Origin: a virus
IMG/VR virus record: IMGVR_UViG_3300025886_000023
Coordinates: 1-58,963 of that record
Direction: 5' to 3' (one strand)
Length of the DNA: 58,963 nt
The number at the start of each line of letters is the position of its first letter. Position 1 is the first letter of the stretch. The notes below the pieces were generated by a model. That model searched no databases and was not told where the DNA came from. It saw nothing but the letters and a program-made list of their open reading frames with translations. The translations under genes were made by a program, and so were the position numbers. Shown piece after piece: positions 28,561 to 53,937 of this stretch.

Positions 28561-29811
28561 ATGGCAAGATTTTTTGGAAAGAACGAAATGCCCGTAACCC
28601 GAAATTTAATTTCGGAGAGGATAAAGTTTTATTTATCTGCTTATAACAAATCACTCGATGGTCTCGATCAAAAGCCCATTGTTGATTTTAATTTCGCTGA
28701 AAATGTATATTATGGCCGAGTAGACCAACGCCTAGATACGATGATGGTTGACCCTCAATTTGTTATTCCAATTAGTACAACCAATAATTATGCTTCGTCG
28801 CCTCAACTAGTAGATTTTGTTGCTGATATGTATTCCGACATGGTTGAAAACTTTACGAATGCCTGTAGGCTTCAAACTATTAATGTCAAAGATCCCTTTT
28901 TAGCAAAATTAAATGCTTATAAGTGGTATCAAGATCCAGAGAAAGATTATAGAAATTATATGAGTTATATAATGAATAATTATATTAACAATTACATAAT
29001 TGGACAAAAGAGAACAAAAGAAATAATGAATGTAAGTGATTTTATTAATCATTTAACTGATTATTCACAACAACTCGGTCCTTATAGCCCCTTTACCTTT
29101 ACCGGCTTTCAATTAAGTCAACAAAGTTCTATTTTTAATACAGGTCTCGCTGTATCGATAAGTGATATCGACATGGATCTTGATGAGTCTAAAGATAATT
29201 TCTTTATTCAAAATGAAGCCTTTCAATATTACTTAAATCTGGCTAAGAACATTGGATTCTCAGTTTCAAAGAATGCGCCATGGCTTTTAGTTGCGGACTT
29301 AGCATCACCAGCCATCCTCCCATACCTTGCCAAATATAATCTTTTTAGCGTTAAAGATGTTTTTAATTTTAGGTTCTCCCCAACTCATAATAGCGATATT
29401 GATAAGTTATTACAAACTATTGTAACTTACTATCGTATTTTTGTCAATAAAAAACCTTATGAAAAGATTATTAAATCATGTAGAACTAAAACATCAGCAG
29501 AGATTAAATATAGAGAATCTATTAATAATAATACAATTAATAATATTAATACTAATGATATATTAAGAGTATATTGTATATTAAGAAATATAGAAGAAAG
29601 AAACATTTTAAATCCCACTGACCTTAACAAACTAATAAGAGACTCCATTAACTATCAGAGAGTTATTTCACTTGGTGAAATAGCAACCTTTATTAATGAA
29701 GCGTTTGTTCAGCTTCGTCCTCTTCAAGATGGAGGGGCCATTTCAACCATTGAGAAACAAAAAATAAAAAAAGATTTGACAAATAGACCAAAGGATGATA
29801 CATTAAGATAG
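28561..29811 (+). CDS. conserved virion-type protein, function unknown
   Basis: This 416-residue protein contains a GFQLSQQSSIFNTGLAVSIS segment (about residue 180) and FSVSKNAPWLLVADLASPAI (about 238). This pattern recurs in an uncharacterised protein family I recall from marine T4-like phages. It is Tyr/Asn-rich with several helices and lacks membrane segments. It is the last gene of the tail block, 17 nt before the polymerase gene. A structural or tail-associated role is suggested by location only. Confidence 0.65.
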   Translation: MARFFGKNEMPVTRNLISERIKFYLSAYNKSLDGLDQKPIVDFNFAENVYYGRVDQRLDTMMVDPQFVIPISTTNNYASSPQLVDFVADMYSDMVENFTNACRLQTINVKDPFLAKLNAYKWYQDPEKDYRNYMSYIMNNYINNYIIGQKRTKEIMNVSDFINHLTDYSQQLGPYSPFTFTGFQLSQQSSIFNTGLAVSISDIDMDLDESKDNFFIQNEAFQYYLNLAKNIGFSVSKNAPWLLVADLASPAILPYLAKYNLFSVKDVFNFRFSPTHNSDIDKLLQTIVTYYRIFVNKKPYEKIIKSCRTKTSAEIKYRESINNNTINNINTNDILRVYCILRNIEERNILNPTDLNKLIRDSINYQRVISLGEIATFINEAFVQLRPLQDGGAISTIEKQKIKKDLTNRPKDDTLR

Positions 29812-29828: not shown

Positions 29829-31019
29829 ATGACATTTCAAACATTGGATGACAAAAGAGACTGTAAAGGAGTTTTTTATAATGGGCAATTCTTTTTTGAT
29901 AAATTGCCTCGTAATTTAGATAGAACATGGTCATGGTCAGAACATTTGGAGGGATATGATGTTGAATTTGCGAACTTATGGTGTGCTAACCAAGATATTA
30001 GAAAGGTTTGTCCTCCTCATCTTCTTGATCGTTATCTTTTTAGGGAGCAACGCCTTCAAGCGCATGTTAAAGCAATTCTTGGGGCGAAGATCAACTTGGA
30101 TGACAATTGTATTTTTGAGCTTGTTCCTCGGCATATTCTTAGGCACTTTTATCAGGTGAAGAATGAAATCACCGATTGGGTGATTGAAAACAAGCCAAAA
30201 CCAAAGAATTATTCCTTTCTTGTTGAGACGCAAGAAACGATAAATGATATAAAACAACATGAACTACAAATCGATTGGGATAATCACAATCTTTTGTTCC
30301 TTCAAGACCCAAAGGCTAAAGCACTCTACCAACGCTTCGCAAAGGTGAAAAGTTTCATCAATTACAACATTTTTGGTACAATAACGGGTCGTTTGACAAC
30401 CTTTCCTGAGTCTTTTCCTATTATGAATCTAAAAACAGAGCATCGAGACATTATTAAGCCAACAAATGATTGGTTTATTGAGTTTGATTTTAATGCTGCT
30501 GAGATTAGAACTCTTTTTTCTCTTGCTGGGATGGATCAACCCCAAGAAGACATTCATGAATTTAATATTCAACAGGTATTCTCTCAGAAACTGAATAGAG
30601 ATAATGCTAAGCGTCGGTTCTTTGCGTGGTTATATAATCCCAATTCACAGGACGAGGAATTAGAAACCTATTATAATCGAACAAAGATACTTGACAAATA
30701 TTATAGAGAGGGTTATATTAATACACCGTTTGGAAGAAAAATAGAAAGTGATGACTTTCACGCTCTAAATTATCTTCTTCAAAGCACTTCATCGGATAAT
30801 TGTATGGATAGAATAAATAAAATACGAAAGCTCTTAAGTGGAAGAGACTCTCATGTTGCTTTTATGTTACATGATTGCGTCGTCATTGACTTTAGTGAAA
30901 AAGATGCTCATCTAGTCTCTAGGATGAAGGAAATATTTGGTGATACTCGCCTCGGCAAGTTTAAAATTAATACAAAAGCGGGAAAAACTTATGGTTCCTT
31001 GGAGAATTTATCATGGTAG
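29829..31019 (+). CDS. stand-alone family A DNA polymerase domain
   Basis: This 396-residue protein carries the full set of family A polymerase motifs: GTITGRLTT near residue 182; motif A EFDFNAAEIRTLFSLAG near 222; an O-helix RDNAKRRFFAWLYN near 257 that keeps the R-x3-K-x3-F-x3-Y spacing; YINTPFGRKI; ALNYLLQSTSSDN; and motif C LHDCVVIDF, which keeps the catalytic Asp but has Cys where Glu is usual. No 3'-5' or 5'-3' exonuclease domain is present; a separate 5'-3' exonuclease is encoded at 37048. It overlaps the tubulin-like gene by 7 nt. A DnaE-type polymerase is also encoded. Confidence 0.88.
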   Translation: MTFQTLDDKRDCKGVFYNGQFFFDKLPRNLDRTWSWSEHLEGYDVEFANLWCANQDIRKVCPPHLLDRYLFREQRLQAHVKAILGAKINLDDNCIFELVPRHILRHFYQVKNEITDWVIENKPKPKNYSFLVETQETINDIKQHELQIDWDNHNLLFLQDPKAKALYQRFAKVKSFINYNIFGTITGRLTTFPESFPIMNLKTEHRDIIKPTNDWFIEFDFNAAEIRTLFSLAGMDQPQEDIHEFNIQQVFSQKLNRDNAKRRFFAWLYNPNSQDEELETYYNRTKILDKYYREGYINTPFGRKIESDDFHALNYLLQSTSSDNCMDRINKIRKLLSGRDSHVAFMLHDCVVIDFSEKDAHLVSRMKEIFGDTRLGKFKINTKAGKTYGSLENLSW

Positions 31020-31819
31020 TTATTGGATTAGGACAAGCGGGATGTAACATCGCCGAACTATTTAAAGTAGACAAGAATTATAAAGTTTTCACCTATGATG
31101 GGGGCGATAATGTACCTGTTCAATCTTCATCCGAACGATACGAAGAAAAATTTACAAAGCAAAAAGAATTATCAAGAATTAAAAACAAAACTATCTGGTT
31201 TTTTGTTTGTGGTTCAGGAAAAATTGCTGGAGCTACTCTACGACTTCTTGAACAAGTCAAGAACAACAGAATAAATGTTGTTTATGTTATTCCAGATCTC
31301 ACTATCTTGTCCGATGTAGCTATAAAGCGAAATAAAATTAGCTTTAATGTTCTTCAGCAATTCGCAAGATCAGGATTAATAGAATCGGTTTATCTAGTTT
31401 CTAATCAAATGATGATGGAAATTGTAGGTGAAGCGCCTTTAACTGAATATTATAATAAAATGAATGAGCTTTTATTTAATTGTATTCATTCTCTTAATAT
31501 CTTTAACAACACTACACCAGTTTTTGGAAGCATGCATGAACCTAAAGAAATATCTCGAATTAGAACCTTTGTATTTCGTGAGGTAAAGAAAAAAGAAAAA
31601 AAGTTATTCTTTCCACTTGACAACCCTACAGAGACATGTTATATTTATAGTATAAATGAGAGCGAATTAAATAATAATTCTTCCCTTATTTCAGAGATAA
31701 AATCAACATTAGATGATAATGTTATTTCTTCTTTTTCAATTTATCAATCTTCCCATGAGTATTCATACGCTTATGGGATTTACTACACCCATTACATACA
31801 ATCCTTGGAGGGAAAATGA
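31013..31819 (+). CDS. divergent tubulin/FtsZ-like protein
   Basis: This 268-residue protein begins with the tubulin-superfamily nucleotide loop VIGLGQAGCNIAELF. VCGSGKIAGATLRLLEQ (residues 65-81) occupies the place of the GGGTGxG signature, followed by a strand VVYVIPD and the helix/strand run VLQQFARSGLIESVYLVSNQ. These are the order and spacing of FtsZ and tubulin N-terminal domains. The signature loop is degenerate, and I cannot find an N-x-D-x-x-D catalytic T7 loop, so GTP hydrolysis may be lost or unusual. The protein is shorter than FtsZ. It overlaps the polymerase gene by 7 nt and the next gene by 4 nt. Confidence 0.72.
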   Translation: MVVIGLGQAGCNIAELFKVDKNYKVFTYDGGDNVPVQSSSERYEEKFTKQKELSRIKNKTIWFFVCGSGKIAGATLRLLEQVKNNRINVVYVIPDLTILSDVAIKRNKISFNVLQQFARSGLIESVYLVSNQMMMEIVGEAPLTEYYNKMNELLFNCIHSLNIFNNTTPVFGSMHEPKEISRIRTFVFREVKKKEKKLFFPLDNPTETCYIYSINESELNNNSSLISEIKSTLDDNVISSFSIYQSSHEYSYAYGIYYTHYIQSLEGK

Positions 31820-32067
31820 AAAATTATGTAGTCTACACTGGAACATTTGTTAAGCAAAGCGGACATGAACGAACTATGCGTTTTATTCGTGTAACCGATG
31901 TACCAGACTCAGCATTCCGTACCGGAGCCGCTGGTCGAACCATGGCACGAAATCTTCGTGAAGGTTATGAAATTGTCTATGACATTGAGCGTCGTGGATT
32001 TAGAGCATTTAATTGGAATTCAACAGTTGGTACAGTAACCTCTGAAGAGACAAATTTCCAGTTTTAA
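31816..32067 (+). CDS. small protein coupled to the tubulin-like gene
   Basis: This 83-residue protein has the basic core RTGAAGRTMARNLREGYEIV and two short beta-rich flanks. Its ATG overlaps the previous stop (ATGA), behind TTGGAGG. No family is recognised. Tight coupling suggests a partner of the tubulin-like protein; a TubR-type DNA-binding fold is not evident. A terminator follows. Confidence 0.65.
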   Translation: MKNYVVYTGTFVKQSGHERTMRFIRVTDVPDSAFRTGAAGRTMARNLREGYEIVYDIERRGFRAFNWNSTVGTVTSEETNFQF

Positions 32068-32083
32068 TGAAATAAGAGTTTCT

Positions 32084-32112
32084 GAGGGTTCTCAAAAAAA
32101 CCCTCTCTTTTT
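32084..32112 (+). terminator. Rho-independent terminator
   Basis: GAGGGTT / AACCCTC closes an A-rich 8-nt loop and is followed by TCTTTTT. It ends the polymerase-tubulin unit just before a strong promoter. Confidence 0.8.
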
Positions 32113-32114
32113 AC

Positions 32115-32143
32115 TTGACAACATGCGGAGAACATGTTATATT
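32115..32143 (+). promoter_or_regulatory. sigma70-type promoter with extended -10, before the ssDNA-binding gene
   Basis: TTGACA (32115-32120), 17 nt, TATATT (32138-32143), with TG one base upstream of the -10. It drives the gp32-like gene. Confidence 0.85.
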
Positions 32144-32223
32144 ATATGTAGAAAAGAACAAAATTTGGTTCTTTTATTTTAGGGTAGATCCCCTCAATGA
32201 TTAACAAACAAAAGGAGAAAATC

Positions 32224-32994
32224 ATGGCTATAGATCTGGAAGCAATGCGAGCAAAACTCGAACAATCAAAAAACGGATATAAAAAGAAAGGAGACAGCAC
32301 GAAATGGAGACCTGAACAAGGCGACCAAACAATACGAATTTTACCAACAGCGGATGGAGACCCGTTCAAAGAATATTTCTTTCACTATAATGTTGGAAAG
32401 AACCCCGGACTATTATGTCCAAAGAAGAATCATGGAGAAAATTGTCCAATCTGCGACTACGCTTCTAAGCTTTGGCGAGAAGGTGTAGATAATAATGATG
32501 ATGTGGCCAAACGAGAAGCTAAGAATCTCTTTGCGCGAAATCGGTATTACTCACCAATCTTGGTCCGAGGAATGGAAAGTGAAGGAGTAAAGGTATGGGC
32601 TTACGGTAAGACCGCTTACCAAATGCTTCTTGGATATGTTCTCGATCCAGATTATGGTGACATCACAGATCCAGAAACAGGCACAGATATTGTCTTGAAT
32701 TATGACATTCCCGGTACTCCGGGCTCATTTCCAAAGACAACTTTAAAGCCTCGTCGTCGTCCGTCAGTTCTTTGTGATGATGCGGTTGCTGATTGTGCCA
32801 CACTTCTTGAATCTATTCCTGAAATTGAAGCACTATTTGAACGAAAAACTGGCATCGAATTACAGACTATCTTAGATGCTTATCATGAAGGTGAACCACC
32901 TGCTCAAGCTTCAACAGATACAACTGCTGGGGTGGAAAAATATGCTTCAGTAGGTGATGATGTCTTAGGCGCTATGAATAGACTTAAAGCTTAA
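32224..32994 (+). CDS. 32: ssDNA-binding protein, T4 gp32-like
   Basis: This 256-residue protein binds single-stranded DNA at the replication fork. ATG 32224 is chosen because AAAGGAG lies just upstream; an ATG at 32197 lacks one. Residues 65-77 hold C-x4-H-x3-C-x2-C (CPKKNHGENCPIC), the zinc site placed as in gp32. The surrounding OB-type core (KWRPEQGDQTIRILPTADGD, FHYNVGKN) and acidic C-terminal region also fit the family. It has a strong promoter of its own, consistent with the high copy number such proteins need. Confidence 0.88.
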   Translation: MAIDLEAMRAKLEQSKNGYKKKGDSTKWRPEQGDQTIRILPTADGDPFKEYFFHYNVGKNPGLLCPKKNHGENCPICDYASKLWREGVDNNDDVAKREAKNLFARNRYYSPILVRGMESEGVKVWAYGKTAYQMLLGYVLDPDYGDITDPETGTDIVLNYDIPGTPGSFPKTTLKPRRRPSVLCDDAVADCATLLESIPEIEALFERKTGIELQTILDAYHEGEPPAQASTDTTAGVEKYASVGDDVLGAMNRLKA

Positions 32995-33142: not shown

Positions 33143-34657
33143 ATGTTAAATGAAAAAATGGGCTCGTTTGTGCCGAAAACAGACTTAAACAATCTTTATG
33201 GATTAGTAATCCCATCAGCGGGACACAGTTTCTTTGATGCTTTAATGGATTTGCTGGATAATTGCTTTGATGCTTTAGCAACAGATATGAAAATAGAAAC
33301 AATGTTAGATAATGACGGAAAACTTGTTGGATGGTGTATAGCAGATAATGGGACCGGAATGGATTTGGGAACATTACAAAAAGCTTTGACTTATTCGGCT
33401 GGCTCAATTCATAAGCCCGGAGATCTAGGAAAGTTTTCTATCGGTGGTACGACAGCATGCGGTACTATTGGTGAATATCGCACAGTTTTTACAAAAACTG
33501 AAACCGGTAGTCTGTTAGTTGGAGAACAAGATTATACAGATGTGACAAACAAAACTAAAATACGGCTTGCTACCGAAGACGAAATATCTTGGTTCAAAAC
33601 GGAAGTCGGTGAAACAGGAACAATCATACTGATTACGAATTTGAGACGACAGAAGCAGTCTTTTAGTAGGGTTGGCGATTATGTTAACAGAATAATAAAA
33701 GAAGTTGCAAAAGTTTTTTATTGTCGATTAGATAAGGATCACAAAATTGTGGTAAAGAATGGCTTAAAACAGAGAAATATTAACCCAGTTGATCCACTTT
33801 ATTCAACAACAGAGCCCGAGAAAGTGAAAGGTTCTATAATGACAAGCATTATTCAATATCAAGGACACGACATATCTATCAGAATGGTTGAAATTGATGC
33901 CGATACTACTAGTCATCAAGAAAGAGCCTATGATCTTTCTGGTCTTTATTTGTGCCGCAATGATAGATTAATTGGCCCTGCTATCTCCATAAAGGGTGTA
34001 TGGAACAGATCTACTAGAACAAACTTGGGTCGTGTTGAAATCAGTTTTACTGAAGCCCTTGATGAAGCATTTGGTGTCACAAACATCAAAAACAAGGTGG
34101 ACCCTGAACAATCATTGGTTGATAAATTGTCCGAGGTTATTAAGCCATTTTACAAATATCTTAACGAATCACACAATGCACCAAAGAAAACTATGGAGAA
34201 TTTAGAAGAGGTTGAAAGTAAGTTCAATTCTACAATTTATTCTAAATTGTCTGACTTGCTACCAATATCATCAACTGGGAAAGCAAGAAAGCCAAAGAGA
34301 AAGACTGGTACCAATCCAAAAGGTGCTGGAAAAGGTTCTCCAAGAGCTGCAAAGCCTCGTGCTTTACCAAAATATCGCCATGTGAGTATGCCAAGAGTTT
34401 TGGATCCTTGGTGGACGGAATATAATCGCTCCGGCGATTCAATTGAGTTAGAAGTGGTGATAAATCAAGGAAACAAATTTATCGAAGACTATTATGTAAA
34501 TGGCACGGAGCGCGAACAGAAAATGATTCTAATATTGGCTTTATCTGAGTGCTTAACAAGAGGTGACTTCGATGATGACAGATTGGATTCCATTGATGCT
34601 TTTGTAGTCAACAAGGCCAAAAGAGTTGGCGAAGTTTACAAAAGATATTCAAAATGA
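33143..34657 (+). CDS. GHKL-type ATPase resembling MORC/HSP90/MutL proteins
   Basis: This 504-residue protein has the Bergerat ATP-binding fold: N-box ALMDLLDNCFDA (about residues 33-44), G1 box DNGTGM (about 69-74), G2-like GKFSIGGTTACG (about 98-109) and GTIILITNL (about 152-160). A second domain containing YDLSGLYLCRNDRLIGPAIS resembles the S5-fold region following GHKL modules. A Lys/Pro-rich linker (about 370-415) and an acidic C-terminus follow. It is not a gyrase B or type II topoisomerase by visible motifs; MORC-like ATPases are the closest style. Bracketed by identical hairpins and set between the ssDNA-binding and recombinase genes, it may act on DNA; role unproven. Confidence 0.72.
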   Translation: MLNEKMGSFVPKTDLNNLYGLVIPSAGHSFFDALMDLLDNCFDALATDMKIETMLDNDGKLVGWCIADNGTGMDLGTLQKALTYSAGSIHKPGDLGKFSIGGTTACGTIGEYRTVFTKTETGSLLVGEQDYTDVTNKTKIRLATEDEISWFKTEVGETGTIILITNLRRQKQSFSRVGDYVNRIIKEVAKVFYCRLDKDHKIVVKNGLKQRNINPVDPLYSTTEPEKVKGSIMTSIIQYQGHDISIRMVEIDADTTSHQERAYDLSGLYLCRNDRLIGPAISIKGVWNRSTRTNLGRVEISFTEALDEAFGVTNIKNKVDPEQSLVDKLSEVIKPFYKYLNESHNAPKKTMENLEEVESKFNSTIYSKLSDLLPISSTGKARKPKRKTGTNPKGAGKGSPRAAKPRALPKYRHVSMPRVLDPWWTEYNRSGDSIELEVVINQGNKFIEDYYVNGTEREQKMILILALSECLTRGDFDDDRLDSIDAFVVNKAKRVGEVYKRYSK

Positions 34658-35122: not shown

Positions 35123-36259
35123 ATGGGTAAAGTAGTGAAAATGAAAGAAGCAAAACAAACAAAAGCCGGAAAGTTATCGACAGGCGATATGAGAAAAATG
35201 ATCAACAAGACAGCCGGTATGAATGTTGCCCATAACCTCAAAGAAGATAACCCAACAGCAGTTACAGATTGGATTCCAACGGGATCAAGATGGCTTGATT
35301 CAATCATCTGTAAAGGCAAGATGGCGGGTATTCCCGTCGGAAAGGTGACCGAGATTGCTGGACTATCAGCATCTGGAAAATCCTTTATGGCAACTCAGAT
35401 AGCAGCAAATGCCCAGAAGATGGGCATGACTGTTGTATATTTTGATGCCGAGTCCTCAATTGATCCCTCGTTCCTTGAGCGTTCTGGAATCAATTTAAAG
35501 GACTTGCTTTATGTCCAAGCAGTATCAGTTGAGAAGACTCTAGAACAAATAGAGTCTCTCTTGGCTAACTTCCCAGAAAATCAATTTCTGTTTATTTGGG
35601 ATAGTATTGCTGCGACAGCCGCAGAGAAAGATATTGAAGGAGACTTTAACCCACAGTCTTCAATGGCTGTAAAGCCCCGTATCTTTGCTAAGGCATTCCC
35701 CAAGTTGACCATTCCAATTGCTAATACAAAATCAGCAGTTGTTTTGATCAACCAACTCAAGACAAATATTACAAACAACATGGCCGAAGCAATGACTACT
35801 CCCTTCATTGCTCCCGGTGGTAAAGCAATAGAATATTTTTGTTCTTTGAGAATCTGGTTAACTCGCCGAAAGGCCAAGGCGTCCTATGTTGAAAACGACA
35901 AAGGTTTTCGTGTTGGCTCGGAGACCAAAGCAAAGATTGAGAAGTCTCGCTTTGGAACCTACGGTAGAACTTGTACCTTTAAAATCCTATGGGGAGACGA
36001 TGTAGGAATCCAAGATGAGGAATCTTGGTTTGAGGCAATAAAGTTATCTGGAACGGATCGTATGAAGAGATCTGGAGCTTGGTATACTATTTGCGATGAG
36101 AAAGGCAAAGAGTATAAATTCCAAGCAGCTAAGTGGATAGAACAGCTTCAAGATCCGAAGTTTAGAAAGATTGTGTATGACATTATGGACAAAGAGATTA
36201 TCGATAAATATGAAGACGATGGGTCTGATATAGACATTGATCTTCCCTCTGAACCATAA
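35123..36259 (+). CDS. uvsX: recombinase, UvsX/RecA family
   Basis: This 378-residue strand-exchange ATPase serves recombination-dependent replication and repair. Walker A GLSASGKS is at residues 80-87 and Walker B LFIWDS at 155-160; between them VVYFDAESSIDP fits the RecA core, and VLINQLKTNI the L2 side. Length is close to T4 UvsX (about 390). Good ribosome binding site (CGGAGG). A UUCG-loop terminator follows directly. Confidence 0.92.
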   Translation: MGKVVKMKEAKQTKAGKLSTGDMRKMINKTAGMNVAHNLKEDNPTAVTDWIPTGSRWLDSIICKGKMAGIPVGKVTEIAGLSASGKSFMATQIAANAQKMGMTVVYFDAESSIDPSFLERSGINLKDLLYVQAVSVEKTLEQIESLLANFPENQFLFIWDSIAATAAEKDIEGDFNPQSSMAVKPRIFAKAFPKLTIPIANTKSAVVLINQLKTNITNNMAEAMTTPFIAPGGKAIEYFCSLRIWLTRRKAKASYVENDKGFRVGSETKAKIEKSRFGTYGRTCTFKILWGDDVGIQDEESWFEAIKLSGTDRMKRSGAWYTICDEKGKEYKFQAAKWIEQLQDPKFRKIVYDIMDKEIIDKYEDDGSDIDIDLPSEP

Positions 36260-37047: not shown

Positions 37048-38004
37048 ATGAAAGAAGTAATTTTAATTGACGGCTTAAATATGTTCCTCCGGAGCTATGT
37101 GGTAGTCCCCGCACTTGACCCCAAGGGCCGACCCATCGGCGGATGCATGGGGTTTCTCAAGTCTCTCCAAAAGATGGTCCGCACCTTCCAGCCAGACGAA
37201 GTTGTTATCTGTTGGGACGGCCAAGGCGGAAGCCAACGACGGAGAGCACAAAATAAAGATTATAAACAAGGCAGAGCCCCGCTCCGATTCAACCGACGAA
37301 TGTACGAGTTATCACCAGAGGCACAAGCCGAGAACAAAGCATATCAATATTATAGGCTCTTGGAGTATCTCAACGAGATGCCAGTCATCCAAGTTGTAAT
37401 TGATAACACAGAAGCCGACGATTTAGTGGCACTGCTTTGTAGGTCAAAACATTACGAAGGATGGAAGAAAACCATTATTTCAAGCGATAAGGACTTCTAC
37501 CAACTGGCAGACGACGAAACCTCAATCTATCGCCCTATTCAAGATAAAATGGTCACAACAGAGACACTTGTGGAAGAGTTCGGGATACACCCCAACAACT
37601 TTGCTCTTGCCCGAGCGATTGCCGGAGACCCTTCCGATAATATTAAAGGCATTGGTCGAGTCGGTCTTGGAACAATAAAGAAGCGATTAGAATTTATGAG
37701 AGAACCCGAAGACCAAACCGTTCAATCGTTAGTAGAACATTGTCAAAAAGTTGAAAAGAAATTGTCTTGTCATAATAAGATTATTGATAAGCGAGATGTA
37801 ATTCATCAGAACTATTTAATCATGCAATTATATTCTCCAAAGATATCTCCGATTAATAGAGAAAAGCTACTATATAATGTCCAACACCACGAGCCCGAAG
37901 TAAATATCAGCACAATAAAAATGATGATGATAACCGATGGCTTCGGTGCTTACAGATTTGATGATCTTTTTGGGTCGTTTCGTCGTCTTTGCTCATACTT
38001 ATAA
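37048..38004 (+). CDS. 5'-3' exonuclease (PolI N-domain / flap nuclease family)
   Basis: This 318-residue nuclease removes RNA primers and flaps during replication. Seen: LIDGLNMFLRSY with the first metal-binding Asp, VVICWDG (about residues 53-59), TEADDLVALL (about 125), SSDKDFYQL (about 145) and the helix-hairpin-helix region GDPSDNIKGIGRVGLGTIKK. It supplies the 5' nuclease that the stand-alone family A polymerase lacks. Functional counterpart of T4 RNase H. Ribosome binding site AAAGGAG. Confidence 0.92.
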   Translation: MKEVILIDGLNMFLRSYVVVPALDPKGRPIGGCMGFLKSLQKMVRTFQPDEVVICWDGQGGSQRRRAQNKDYKQGRAPLRFNRRMYELSPEAQAENKAYQYYRLLEYLNEMPVIQVVIDNTEADDLVALLCRSKHYEGWKKTIISSDKDFYQLADDETSIYRPIQDKMVTTETLVEEFGIHPNNFALARAIAGDPSDNIKGIGRVGLGTIKKRLEFMREPEDQTVQSLVEHCQKVEKKLSCHNKIIDKRDVIHQNYLIMQLYSPKISPINREKLLYNVQHHEPEVNISTIKMMMITDGFGAYRFDDLFGSFRRLCSYL

Positions 38005-38864: not shown

Positions 38865-40223
38865 ATGCAACAACAAACAGACAACTTTGCTAAGTTTGGT
38901 AAGAGTTTCCAAGATTCACTTTGCCAGCTTATGCTAGAGGACAGACCATTCTGCGACCAAATCACAGAGGTTTTAACAATTGATTTCTTAGAGACAAAAT
39001 ATCTTCAGGTATTTGTCAAGACCATAATGGATTACCGCAGCAGGTATAATGTCCATCCCACCTATAAAATCCTCGCAACAATATTTAAATCAGGTATCAC
39101 TGAATATGATGATGCAGTACAAAAGCAAGTAAGAGATTATTATGCTCGTGTGATTGCCTCTGATAAAGTAAATGATGCTGATTATATCAAAGAGACAGCC
39201 ATTGATTTCTGTCGTAAGCAAGTTCTTAAGCAAGCCATGATGAAATCTGTTGGACTTCTAAAGTCTTCATCATTTGATGAGATTTCACAAGTAATCAACA
39301 ATGCTCTTAAGCTTGGCTCCGACAATAACTTCGGACACGATTACCTTGCCGACTTCGAGAGACGCTTTGAATTAAAAATAAGAAACCCTGTCTCAACTGG
39401 ATGGGAAAGAATGGATGACCTTTGTAAAGGCGGACTAGGCAAATCAGAAATGGGTGTTGTAATCGCTCCCACGGGTGCTGGTAAGTCAATGGTATTGGTT
39501 CACTTAGGAACTCAAGCCCTTAAGTTAGGAAAGACAGTTGTCCATTACACATTAGAGTTAGCTGATACAACAGTCGGTTCTCGTTATGATTCTTGCTTAA
39601 CTGGAATTCCATTAAATGATCTGATGACAAACAAGGCAGAAATTTACGACCAGATTCAAGATATTGAGGGCGCCTTGATTGTAAAAGAATACCCAACAAA
39701 GTCAGCCACTACTCAAACTATCAAGAATCACCTTGAACGATTGAAGAAAAGAGGTATTCACCCTGATATGATTATCGTTGATTATGCGGATTTATTACGA
39801 CCAATTAAGGCAAAAAATGAGAAAAGACACGAGTTGGAAACTATTTATGAAGACCTTCGCGGTATCTCTCAAATTATGGAATGTCCTGTTTGGACAGCAT
39901 CCCAGACGAACCGATCAGGTCTCAATGCCGAAGTCATAACGATGGAAGCAATTTCAGAAGCATTTAACAAATGTTTTGTGGCGGACTTTATTTTTACAGT
40001 ATCTCGAACAATTGAAGACAAGCAGGCTAATATGGGTCGCATCTTTCTTGCGAAGAACCGAAATGGACCCGATGGATTAGTGTTGCCGCTCTTCATGGAT
40101 ACATCAAATGTCTGTATAAAAATATTAGAAGACCAAGATGAGTTGCATGAACAACGGGCGAACCCCGTCGCGAATGCCAAAGAACACATCAAGAATAAAT
40201 ATTCACATTTAATGAACAAATAG
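38865..40223 (+). CDS. 41: replicative DNA helicase, DnaB/T4 gp41-like
   Basis: This 452-residue hexameric helicase has the RecA-type core: Walker A APTGAGKS at residues 201-208, LELADTTVGSRYDSCLTGI, Walker B MIIVDYADLLRPI near 305, and a late AKNRNGPDG segment typical of DnaB motif H4. The N-terminal ~170 residues form the helical primase-interaction domain. The promoter is its own. A primase is not seen in this window. Confidence 0.92.
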   Translation: MQQQTDNFAKFGKSFQDSLCQLMLEDRPFCDQITEVLTIDFLETKYLQVFVKTIMDYRSRYNVHPTYKILATIFKSGITEYDDAVQKQVRDYYARVIASDKVNDADYIKETAIDFCRKQVLKQAMMKSVGLLKSSSFDEISQVINNALKLGSDNNFGHDYLADFERRFELKIRNPVSTGWERMDDLCKGGLGKSEMGVVIAPTGAGKSMVLVHLGTQALKLGKTVVHYTLELADTTVGSRYDSCLTGIPLNDLMTNKAEIYDQIQDIEGALIVKEYPTKSATTQTIKNHLERLKKRGIHPDMIIVDYADLLRPIKAKNEKRHELETIYEDLRGISQIMECPVWTASQTNRSGLNAEVITMEAISEAFNKCFVADFIFTVSRTIEDKQANMGRIFLAKNRNGPDGLVLPLFMDTSNVCIKILEDQDELHEQRANPVANAKEHIKNKYSHLMNK

Positions 40224-50496: not shown

Positions 50497-53400
50497 ATGG
50501 AAAGAATACCATTTGTAGGATTACATGCACACTGTGGGGTTGGTTCCCCATTTGATGGCTTCGGCTATCCAAAAGACCACATGAACTATGCTCATAGCAA
50601 CGGAGCCAAAGCTCTTGCTCTCACAGACCACGGTAATATGAATGGATTAGTCTATCAGGTTATGCATGCGAAGAAGATGCAAGCCGAAGGTAAAGACTTC
50701 AAGCCAATCTTTGGTGTTGAGGCTTACTTCATTCCGTCTGTCGCTGAGTGGAAAGAGCAAATTGAAGTGTTCCGAAAAGATAAGAAGCTTGCCAAGCAGA
50801 TTGATAAAGAGCAGTCAGGTACCACGATTGAGAACGAGGGTGCCTCCAAGGGCATCACGAAGCACGACATTAATAAGCGGAGACACTTGGTTCTTTTGGC
50901 TCAAAGCCAAACAGGTCTTAACAATATTTTTAAAATGGTCTCGAAGAGTTACACTGGAGACAACTTCTATCGCTATCCTCGTATTGACTTGGCTCTCCTT
51001 GAAGAGTATGGTGAAGGTGTTATCGCTGCTTCGGCTTGCCTTGGTGGTGTCTATGCTGGATGCTATTGGGAGAACCGAGACGAAGGCCCTGAAGCCGTAC
51101 TCAATTGTATGCTGAAGGTTACAGAAGAGATGCAAGCTGTCCTTGGTGACCGTTGGTATGGCGAGCTTCAATGGAATAATATTCCAGAGCAACACGAATT
51201 AAATCAATACATAATTCAGGTTCACGAACGAACAGGGCTAAAACTGATCTCTACCTGTGATAGCCACTATCCTAGTCCGGAAGCTTGGCAATCTCGTGAA
51301 CTATATAAAAGGCTTGGATGGCTTGGACGAAAGCCCGAGTGGGCCTCGATGGAGCTTCCTTTAACGGTTGATGAAGTTGGATATGAATTATATCCTAAAA
51401 ACGGAAATCAAATGTGGGATTCATATAAGTTTTACTCGGAGGCATGTGGAGTAACTTATAATGACGACATCGTTTACCAATCAATCATCGAGACTGCTAC
51501 GATTGCTTTTGACCGAATTGAATCTTTCTTACCCGATACTACTGTTCGGTTGCCTGATTTCGTCGTCCCTGCTGGCACTGACGATACATCTTATCTTGGG
51601 CAGCTAGCCTTTGAGGGATTGCTCTCGGTCTTAGGATCAAAGGGCATTAAACAAAACTCACCACAATTCAAGGATTATAACAACAGACTCAACTCAGAGC
51701 TTGATGTTATCAATGCTCAAGGCTTCGCTAAGTATTTCTTAACGATGAAAGCAATTGTGGATAAGACAAGCGAAGTTCAGCTTGCAGGTCCCGGTCGTGG
51801 TTCGGCTGCTGGTTCTCTTGTGGCTTATGCTCTTGAGATAACCCAAGTTGATCCCATTGAGTATGGTCTCCTTTTCTCTCGTTTCTTGAGAACAGACCAG
51901 ACAGATATGCCTGACATTGATTATGATGTCTCTGACCCAATGGTTCTTAAAGAAAAGCTGATTGAGGATTGGGGTGATGATGTTGTTGTTCCTATCTCAA
52001 ACTGGAACACGCTCCAGCTAAAGTCCCTTATCAAAGACATCTCTCGTCTGTATGAGATACCATTCTCTGAGGTGAATCCTGTCACATCAAAGATGATTTA
52101 TGAAGCAACTCCATTAGCCAAAGCCCGTCATGGTATCAAGGCCGGAGTCTATACTCCAACTCTCAGCGAGGTTATGGAGTTCTCTGAATCTCTTCAGGGG
52201 TTCTTCCGTCAGTATCCAAAGATTGAGAAGCATTGCCGTGACCTAGCTGGTCAGGTGAAGTCTTGTTCTCGTCATGCCGGTGGTGTTGTGATTGGTGAGA
52301 AGCTCAGTCAATACATGCCGCTCATCGCATCCAAGGGTGTTCGACAAACTCCGTGGTCCGAAGGTCAGAATGTTCGTCAGCTTGAGCCTATGGGCTTCAT
52401 CAAGTTTGATATCCTTGGGCTCTCAACTCTGCGAATGATTGAAGACTGCATTGAGAAAATACTTCGTCGTCACCACGGTGTCGCCAACCCGACCTTCAGA
52501 GACATAAGAAAATTTTATAATGAGAAACTTCATCCCGATGTACTTAACTTAGATGACCAAGCGGTTTATGAGAATATCTTTCACGATAAGAAGTGGATTG
52601 GTATCTTTCAGTTCACAGAGAACGGAGCACAAACATTTGCTAGTCAAGTAAAACCTCGTTCAATAATAGACATTTCTGCTATAACATCTATATACAGACC
52701 CGGACCTCTTTCAGCAGGGGTTGATCGGGAGTATGTGGAAGCACATAACAATCCAGAATCTGTTCGTTATTTAAATAACACAGTGCGTGAGGTTACACAA
52801 GAAACCCATGGCTTTTTGATCTTTCAAGAACAAATAGCTCTTCTTGCTCACAAGCTGGGTCGTAATCTAACACTAGATGAAGGAAACCTTCTAAGGAAGG
52901 TATTGACCAAGAAAGGAACAGGTAAAGGCCATGAAGTTAAAGAGAAGATATATCAAAAGTTTATTGATGGTTGCTCGGACAAGGGACTCCCAATTTCTCA
53001 AGCAGATAATTTATGGCAAACCTTTGAGTATTTCTCAGGTTATGGCTTTAATAAATCACATGCGGTAAGTTATTCAATAATTTCCTATCAATGCGCATGG
53101 CTTTGTAATTATTACAATGTAGAGTGGGTAGCATCCTTTTTGGATAAAGAACCCGAAACTCGTAAGGAGAAGGCCATAAATTTGGCCAAACAACACGGAT
53201 ATACCATACAGCCTCTGAATGTAAACAAGTCTCACCGATCTTGGGAGATTCTTGATGAACAAACATTGGTTGCTCCGCTTACAACTATCAAAGGCATGGG
53301 TGACAAAGCAATTGATCAGATACTTGCGCATCGTCCGTTCAACACAGTTGAAGAGTTTCTCTTTAATGAGAATATTGTTTACTCAAAGCTCAATAAGAAA

Positions 53401-53937
53401 GCTCTTGATGCTCTCTGTCGTGCTGGAGCGATGGCTGACCTGATTGATGATCGATTCACGGGAGACAAACACTTCTGGACCGCCACCTGTGTTGACCGGC
53501 CTCGCAAGTTGAAGAACCTTGCTGAGAACATTGAAAAGTATCGTCCCGAAGGAAACTTCTCTGATGATGAGCGTATTGATTTCTTGGCAAATCTCACGGG
53601 AATATTCCCAATGAACTTGGTTCTTGATGAAAATATACAAAGAAAGCTTGAGCAACATTGTGTTCCGCCAATCTCTGAGTTTGATCCCGAGCTTGGACTA
53701 TGCTGGTGTATTGTCCGAGAAGTCACAAAGAAAAAAACAAAGAATGGAAAACTCTTCTATGTTGCGAATGTCATCGACAATAACTCAGTAGAGACAAAAG
53801 TTAGATGCTGGACCGTAAACCCAGATAGAGATATACTCTATGTGAATCGCCCTTACATGATCAAGCCTCAGTACAATGAAACATGGGGATTCTCAACACG
53901 AGGAGCCCTTAACCGTGCTTGGGTTTTATTAGGATAA
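50497..53937 (+). CDS. dnaE: DNA polymerase III alpha subunit (family C, DnaE type)
   Basis: This 1146-residue replicative polymerase is close in length to E. coli DnaE (1160). The PHP domain opens the protein (GLHAHCGVGSPFDGF, LALTDHGNMNG). The polymerase core has GPGRGSAAGSLVAYAL near residue 435, the catalytic DMPDIDYDVSD near 470-477, and KFDILGLSTLRM near 635 with the third Asp. A helix-hairpin-helix region (TTIKGMGDKAIDQIL) and an OB-type C-terminal domain (LCWCIVREVTKKKTKNGK) follow. No proofreading exonuclease is fused, and none is obvious in the window. Transcribed from its own promoter. Confidence 0.95.
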   Translation: MERIPFVGLHAHCGVGSPFDGFGYPKDHMNYAHSNGAKALALTDHGNMNGLVYQVMHAKKMQAEGKDFKPIFGVEAYFIPSVAEWKEQIEVFRKDKKLAKQIDKEQSGTTIENEGASKGITKHDINKRRHLVLLAQSQTGLNNIFKMVSKSYTGDNFYRYPRIDLALLEEYGEGVIAASACLGGVYAGCYWENRDEGPEAVLNCMLKVTEEMQAVLGDRWYGELQWNNIPEQHELNQYIIQVHERTGLKLISTCDSHYPSPEAWQSRELYKRLGWLGRKPEWASMELPLTVDEVGYELYPKNGNQMWDSYKFYSEACGVTYNDDIVYQSIIETATIAFDRIESFLPDTTVRLPDFVVPAGTDDTSYLGQLAFEGLLSVLGSKGIKQNSPQFKDYNNRLNSELDVINAQGFAKYFLTMKAIVDKTSEVQLAGPGRGSAAGSLVAYALEITQVDPIEYGLLFSRFLRTDQTDMPDIDYDVSDPMVLKEKLIEDWGDDVVVPISNWNTLQLKSLIKDISRLYEIPFSEVNPVTSKMIYEATPLAKARHGIKAGVYTPTLSEVMEFSESLQGFFRQYPKIEKHCRDLAGQVKSCSRHAGGVVIGEKLSQYMPLIASKGVRQTPWSEGQNVRQLEPMGFIKFDILGLSTLRMIEDCIEKILRRHHGVANPTFRDIRKFYNEKLHPDVLNLDDQAVYENIFHDKKWIGIFQFTENGAQTFASQVKPRSIIDISAITSIYRPGPLSAGVDREYVEAHNNPESVRYLNNTVREVTQETHGFLIFQEQIALLAHKLGRNLTLDEGNLLRKVLTKKGTGKGHEVKEKIYQKFIDGCSDKGLPISQADNLWQTFEYFSGYGFNKSHAVSYSIISYQCAWLCNYYNVEWVASFLDKEPETRKEKAINLAKQHGYTIQPLNVNKSHRSWEILDEQTLVAPLTTIKGMGDKAIDQILAHRPFNTVEEFLFNENIVYSKLNKKALDALCRAGAMADLIDDRFTGDKHFWTATCVDRPRKLKNLAENIEKYRPEGNFSDDERIDFLANLTGIFPMNLVLDENIQRKLEQHCVPPISEFDPELGLCWCIVREVTKKKTKNGKLFYVANVIDNNSVETKVRCWTVNPDRDILYVNRPYMIKPQYNETWGFSTRGALNRAWVLLG

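Follow-up and report, generated by a model that had tools for sequence, protein, structure and literature searches.

A minimal tubulin/FtsZ-fold protein encoded in the replication gene block of a T4-like phage

The gene that overlaps the end of a family A DNA polymerase gene (PolA) in a T4-like phage genome encodes a protein that, by its predicted fold, is a member of the tubulin/FtsZ superfamily and could be placed in none of its named families (FtsZ, PhuZ, TubZ, FtsZl1/2). The DNA analysed, called the window here, is the whole stretch of 58,963 bp of the IMG/VR virus record IMGVR_UViG_3300025886_000023. The protein is most likely non-hydrolysing and non-dynamic, with a core role that is independent of GTP, and it is probably connected with the replication of phage DNA; a dynamic filament of the PhuZ type is unlikely. 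We hypothesize that it represents a new minimal family of the superfamily, which is no longer a GTP-driven filament and acts as a non-hydrolysing part of the replication machinery. Taken as a whole, we give this explanation an even chance of being correct.

The gene and the predicted fold of its product

The tubulin-like ORF overlaps the polymerase ORF by 7 nt, and its stop codon overlaps the start of the following ORF by 4 nt (ATGA), so the length and both overlaps given by the sequence-only reading were reproduced from the ORF coordinates (Table 1). The GLGQAGCN loop that it had pointed out lies at residues 5–12, and VCGSGKIAGATLR occupies residues 65–77.

Table 1. Features of the window, of the tubulin-like protein (residue numbers), and of the associated NUDIX loci
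Feature	Position	Strand	Basis
Family A DNA polymerase (PolA), 396 aa	29829..31019	+	Motifs A/B/C, Pfam, AF2, Foldseek
Minimal tubulin/FtsZ-fold protein, 268 aa	31013..31819	+	ORF, ATG start; AF2, Foldseek, hhalign, homologue alignments
T1 glycines	G5/G7/G10		
T4	G67-S-G-K-I-A-G73		
H5 motif	V113-L-Q115-Q-F-A-R119-S		
T6	N131		
H7, including Y147 and N151	residues 143-165		
Linker standing where T7-H8 would be, 16 residues	residues 166-181		
C-terminal beta domain	residues 183-259		
WYL_2-like (SH3-barrel) protein, 83 aa	31816..32067	+	Homologues match Pfam WYL_2 (PF10902), best 1e-5, just under curated cut-off
gp32-like single-strand DNA-binding protein (SSB)	32197..32994	+	Pfam gp32 6e-16, synteny
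UvsX/RecA recombinase	35123..36259	+	Pfam RecA 8e-39, synteny
Separate 5'-3' exonuclease	37048..38004	+	Pfam 5_3_exonuc_N 1e-29, synteny
DnaB-like replicative helicase	38865..40223	+	Pfam DnaB_C 2.5e-19, synteny
DnaE-type DNA polymerase III alpha	50497..53937	+	Pfam DNA_pol3_alpha 8e-51
NUDIX hydrolase gene upstream of tubulin-like gene	L276:8306-8710, L282:8548-8949, L278:2931-3332, and 11 further loci		

An AlphaFold2 (AF2) model of the protein, built from a 62-sequence alignment, reached a mean pLDDT of 92.3 and a pTM of 0.90. The order of its elements is S1-H1-S2, S4-H4-S5-H5-S6-H6-H7, followed by a four-stranded C-terminal domain, so the model contains the Rossmann-like GTPase domain, the core helix H7, and the C-terminal beta domain that define the tubulin/FtsZ fold. 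In a Foldseek search of the PDB, the best 50 matches were all FtsZ, CetZ, or TubZ (best E 2e-11, TMq up to 0.72), and among viral models the best match was an uncultured-phage FtsZ (1e-9), with other phage tubulins at 1e-7 and weaker. The fold proposed by the sequence-only reading is therefore supported by the model. A plain Rossmann fold without H7, which that reading had named as evidence against itself, was looked for with the model and Foldseek and was not found, since H7 is present and every top structure match listed belongs to the FtsZ superfamily. The gene is not a chance reading frame either, given the confidence of the model and the FtsZ matches, at least several hundred homologues, and purifying selection with dN/dS of 0.02–0.16 in related pairs.

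The signal in sequence searches is much fainter. The hhalign comparison with the FtsZ profile gave an E of 1.3e-5 at a probability of 80.6, which does not exceed 95, and aligned residues 1–162, i.e., the GTPase domain only. The single-sequence search returned TrkA_N at 0.065 and Tubulin at 0.81, the NCBIfam ftsZ match stood at 0.032 (residues 123–161), and phmmer against the PDB found FtsZ at 0.35 (residues 119–161). The curated cut-offs were missed (10.4 bits vs 33 for PF00091, 13.6 vs 295 for TIGR00065), and the best-scoring homologue matched PF00091 with an E of 1.9e-4. The reading as an ordinary Rossmann-type nucleotide- or NAD-binding protein, to which weak N-terminal matches to TrkA_N, ApbA, and 6-phosphogluconate dehydrogenase point, is highly improbable and on the modelled structure largely refuted, because these matches span only about the first 25–80 residues, whereas over the whole chain all structure matches listed belong to the FtsZ superfamily, the model has H7 and the C-terminal domain, no dehydrogenase-type structure occurs among the 50 best PDB matches, and N131, Y147, and N151 pair with guanine contacts of FtsZ.

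Guanine pocket and the missing T7-H8 region

In the hhalign pairing, N131, Y147, and N151 fall on N166, F183, and N187 of FtsZ, the guanine contacts whose role is established for FtsZ and tubulin. Among 142 distinct full-length homologues, N131 is Asn in 141, position 151 is Asn or Asp in 141, and position 147 is aromatic (Y, W, or F) in 130. More divergent members were obtained with the polymerase as bait, and in the resulting wider set of 195 homologues the guanine-recognition residues N131 and N151 together with the T1 glycines are kept in about 90%, the T1 glycines being essentially invariant. The T4 signature GGGTG[TS]G is absent; the homologues read G-[SA]-G-K-[IV]-[SA]-G, in which G67 is kept and the other glycines partly, and the degenerate signature loop noticed in the single sequence is thus reduced across the homologues.

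The absence of a T7 loop, also noticed at first in the single sequence, holds for the window's protein and extends to the whole set, as NxDxxD was found in 0 of 195 homologues. An H7-to-S7 linker of 16 residues replaces T7 and H8 in 194 of the 195. In the AF2 model no helix lies between H7 and S7, and the chain stops a few residues past the last strand. An HExxE in the linker was considered as a substitute catalytic motif and rejected, the residue being acidic at position 176 in only 61% and at position 179 in 70%. In FtsZ, T7 and H8 extend into the next subunit and there complete the hydrolysis of GTP; they also contribute to the bottom face of the filament. The protofilament contact of FtsZ, tubulin, and phiKZ TubZ is made by T7, the base of H8, and S9 (PMC3678025). 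Since T7 and H8 are absent, canonical hydrolysis and stacking would not be expected here, although proteins without T7 could still stack through another face. As the alignments and the model show it, the family has kept the GTP-binding half (T1, a reduced T4, and T6/H7 with both Asn and the stacking aromatic), has a shortened C-terminal domain, and has lost T7 and H8. We infer that most members bind GTP and that the protein does not form filaments.

The pocket itself is not universal. N131 is lost in 17 of the 195 homologues (now Y, L, M, or E), all 17 of which have E or D at T4 position 69, where G69 stood, and 10 of which have lost N151 too. On the tree of homologues, pocket loss, as read from these substitutions, needs three changes, at least two of them forced by well-supported branches. 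The guanine pocket thus appears to have decayed in at least two, and probably three, lineages. The pocketless genes have dN/dS of 0.05–0.18, and E41, Q115, R119, and S120 are unchanged in 17/17, so the guanine pocket is not alone among the most constrained features of the protein, which also include E41-x-Y43-[E/D]44 and the VLQxxARS motif of H5. The conserved E41/R119 surface could belong to the structural core. A NUDIX hydrolase gene (PF00293, E down to 1e-21) lies directly upstream in 14 of the 17 pocketless loci and in 0 of 150 pocket-bearing loci. All 14 belong to one clade and the other three pocketless members have no NUDIX gene, so the association counts as one evolutionary event and its link to pocket loss is suggestive. 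In the same main pocketless clade, proteins weakly matching dual-specificity/tyrosine phosphatases (CX5R motif) are encoded between PolA and the tubulin-like gene (L276:7196-8278, L286:2218-3582), and one of them has a 2'-5' RNA ligase/LigT-like part.

Replication block and distribution of the family

The neighbouring polymerase has the conserved residues of motif A (D220/E225), motif B (R257, K261, Y269), and motif C (H348-D349) as well as Q318, and the polymerase fold of family A (Pfam DNA_pol_A 7.8e-8, AF2 pLDDT 92.9, Foldseek matches to Taq, Bst, and apicoplast Pol at about 3e-12). Cellular Pol I carries a 5'-3' exonuclease domain at its N-terminus; no exonuclease domain is recognisable in the 396-aa PolA. 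Its N-terminal ~175 residues, which have no assigned function, carry invariant D7, C12, W34, and C94. The phage encodes this PolA, a separate 5'-3' exonuclease, and a Pol III alpha, that is, a split Pol I. The DnaE-type Pol III alpha, which 8 of the 9 larger records tested contain, is probably the replicative polymerase of this phage group.

At about 80 loci the gene order is h416, PolA, tubulin-like gene, (WYL_2), SSB, UvsX, 5'-3' exonuclease, and helicase, with some genes between, as far as the contigs reach. The first of these, a 416-aa protein of unassigned function (28561-29811 in the window), is encoded immediately upstream of PolA at most loci whose sequence extends to that point. The gene downstream of the tubulin-like gene had been described as small and unknown; the 4-nt overlap holds, but it is no orphan, as its homologues match WYL_2 just under the curated cut-off, and it stands near the tubulin-like gene in many relatives, not all. 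A GHKL ATPase gene (HATPase_c_3, 1.6e-12; 33143-34657) also lies inside the block, and only some relatives have it.

PolA is present at 156 of 178 tubulin-like loci, and at the other 22 the contig or fetched stretch begins no more than 559 nt upstream of the gene. The two genes overlap by 1–13 nt at 110 of the 156. Conversely, the tubulin-like gene occurs at 77 of 80 PolA loci, the remaining three contigs ending 0–1.6 kb past PolA. In a mirror-tree test with the other genes held constant, its distance correlation with PolA was no stronger than with SSB or UvsX; a tie specific to PolA was thus rejected in favour of a co-inherited block. The linkage to PolA, as seen in these genomes, points to co-inheritance and says nothing of contact. 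The suggestion that the protein may be a regulator tied to replication is consistent with its near-obligate linkage to the polymerase-SSB-UvsX-exonuclease-helicase block.

Two alignment scans of IMG/VR confirmed 580 and 562 homologues among the 600 candidate stretches listed, totals that are lower bounds and put the size of the family at several hundred members at least, with identities down to 33%. No homologue was found among 50,697 sequenced isolate phages or on any contig of the GTDB genomes, and the literature searched held no description of the family. The carriers are apparently a large group of uncultured bacterial viruses. Each larger record examined (to 191 kb) has one intact copy, and no canonical or second tubulin was seen in these records, which may be incomplete. 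In the record of locus L043, a fragment equivalent to residues 196–243, with stops, lies about 0.9 kb downstream of the intact gene (G004 C1:69505-69648) and is a remnant of a partial duplication. A weak second match in the window (32054-32164, E 0.0035, in a 47-aa frame) was taken as chance. Canonical FtsZ was found in 76 IMG/VR contigs (L197–L272), with 37–68% identity to a gammaproteobacterial FtsZ and T7 in 72 of the 76; the contigs may be bacterial and misclassified, or the FtsZ genes may truly belong to phages. Neither PolA nor the tubulin-like gene stands beside FtsZ in any of the 76 within the stretch fetched.

Known systems and possible functions

The closest comparison is FtsZ, with which the family shares the fold, the T1 glycines, and the three guanine contacts. 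It differs from FtsZ by its 268-aa length, the reduced T4, the deletion of T7 and H8, an identity of only about 10–15%, and scores below the Pfam and NCBIfam cut-offs. The phage-encoded tubulin fold is shared with I1VXE4 (E 2e-6), which we take to be a PhuZ/phiKZ TubZ-type tubulin of the nucleus-forming jumbo phages, whereas the present family occurs in T4-like phages with a different gene content. Catalysis by T7 is retained in PhuZ and TubZ, their protofilaments are canonical or nearly so (PMC3678025), and their C-terminal tail is involved in assembly; the family has neither the catalysis nor the tail. TubZ of Bacillus plasmids and phages has the same fold (4ei7, E 8e-10), but the family lacks the TubZ-type tail and T7, and no TubR/tubC partner was recognised. 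FtsZl1 and FtsZl2 are likewise divergent superfamily members. In FtsZl1 the canonical T6-H7 elements are not recognisable, and the paper describing both makes no mention of phages (Makarova and Koonin, 2010; PMC2875224). The present family, on the other hand, has a clear T6 and H7 with T7-H8 deleted, and has no coiled coil, vWA, or membrane partners. AlpC of the Corynebacterium prophage CGP3 is also a phage cytoskeleton-type protein, but it is a filament-forming ATPase of the actin fold with a DNA-binding adaptor (PMC4446434).

The filament system of the PhuZ/TubZ kind that the sequence-only reading had put forward is not supported, since T7 and H8, the canonical contact and catalytic elements, are gone and pocket residues were lost in some lineages that kept the gene. 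An atypical phage filament, which would position DNA as PhuZ and TubZ do through a new interface and turn over without T7 catalysis, is unlikely. According to Makarova and Koonin (2010; PMC2875224), every superfamily protein characterised by that year formed filaments. The linker keeps a fixed length of 16 residues, the constraint one would expect of an interface, and the phage actin-like AlpC filament is required for efficient phage replication (PMC4446434). However, T7 and H8 of the standard protofilament contact are missing, there is no long C-terminal tail like that of PhuZ/TubZ, the pocket decays in some lineages, and no fixed adaptor gene was recognised beyond the replication block, the WYL_2 gene not being universal.

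Another reading, which we consider doubtful, is that of a cap or decoy for host FtsZ. The GTP-carrying top face would dock on the bottom of a filament end, and without T7/H8 nothing could be added, so that the Z-ring would collapse in infection. A chain terminator would be expected to keep the top half and lose the bottom half, as this protein has done. FtsZ is the closest fold among the Foldseek matches listed, and there are well-known phage inhibitors of FtsZ, such as lambda Kil (PMC3961180), P1 Icd (PMC11897509), and T7 Gp0.4 (PMC13423816). Against this, with so low an identity to FtsZ the protein does not imitate the docking face at the sequence level, the gene has a fixed place in the replication block, unlike the typically scattered takeover genes, and pocketless lineages with a remodelled nucleotide face (acidic T4 loop) still keep it. 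These lineages weaken both the cap and the atypical filament. The protein might also be a sensor of GTP or guanine nucleotides, a non-hydrolysing switch that tunes the polymerase to nucleotide supply. The pocket kept in most homologues fits such a role, as does the upstream NUDIX gene of the main pocketless clade, as if a nucleotide-handling role had moved there, but that association is a single event and three other pocketless members do without it; we regard the sensor as quite improbable.

In the replication-part explanation that we prefer, the ligand of most members would be GTP or GDP, bound stably or as a switch, with canonical hydrolysis absent. Instead of canonical treadmilling protofilaments, the protein would form a monomer, a dimer, or a static assembly, and it may hold or regulate the PolA-containing replication machinery via the surface around E41-x-Y43-[E/D]44 and V-L-Q-x-x-A-R-S. 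Because some lineages lost the guanine pocket and kept the protein, its core task would lie in contacting protein or DNA and not in polymerisation driven by nucleotide. The most specific form of this proposal is tentative: the tubulin-fold protein may have become a permanent part of a phage replication complex, where it works with a minimal Pol A. GTP would be at most a structural ligand, dispensable in some lineages, and the protein would neither polymerise nor hydrolyse GTP.

Classic phage tubulin/FtsZ proteins move DNA by GTP hydrolysis. In the phages described here, an ancient cytoskeletal fold seems to have taken on another role in virus replication. A core phage gene in which the fold is kept, the catalytic half-site is deleted, and the pocket is repeatedly lost would show how a cytoskeletal GTPase can be turned to a structural or regulatory role in another system, and the predicted guanine binders and non-binders form a natural series for testing this change of role. 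The analysis offers a functional hypothesis for hundreds of unannotated phage proteins which, if true, would be a branch of the superfamily that left the cytoskeleton.
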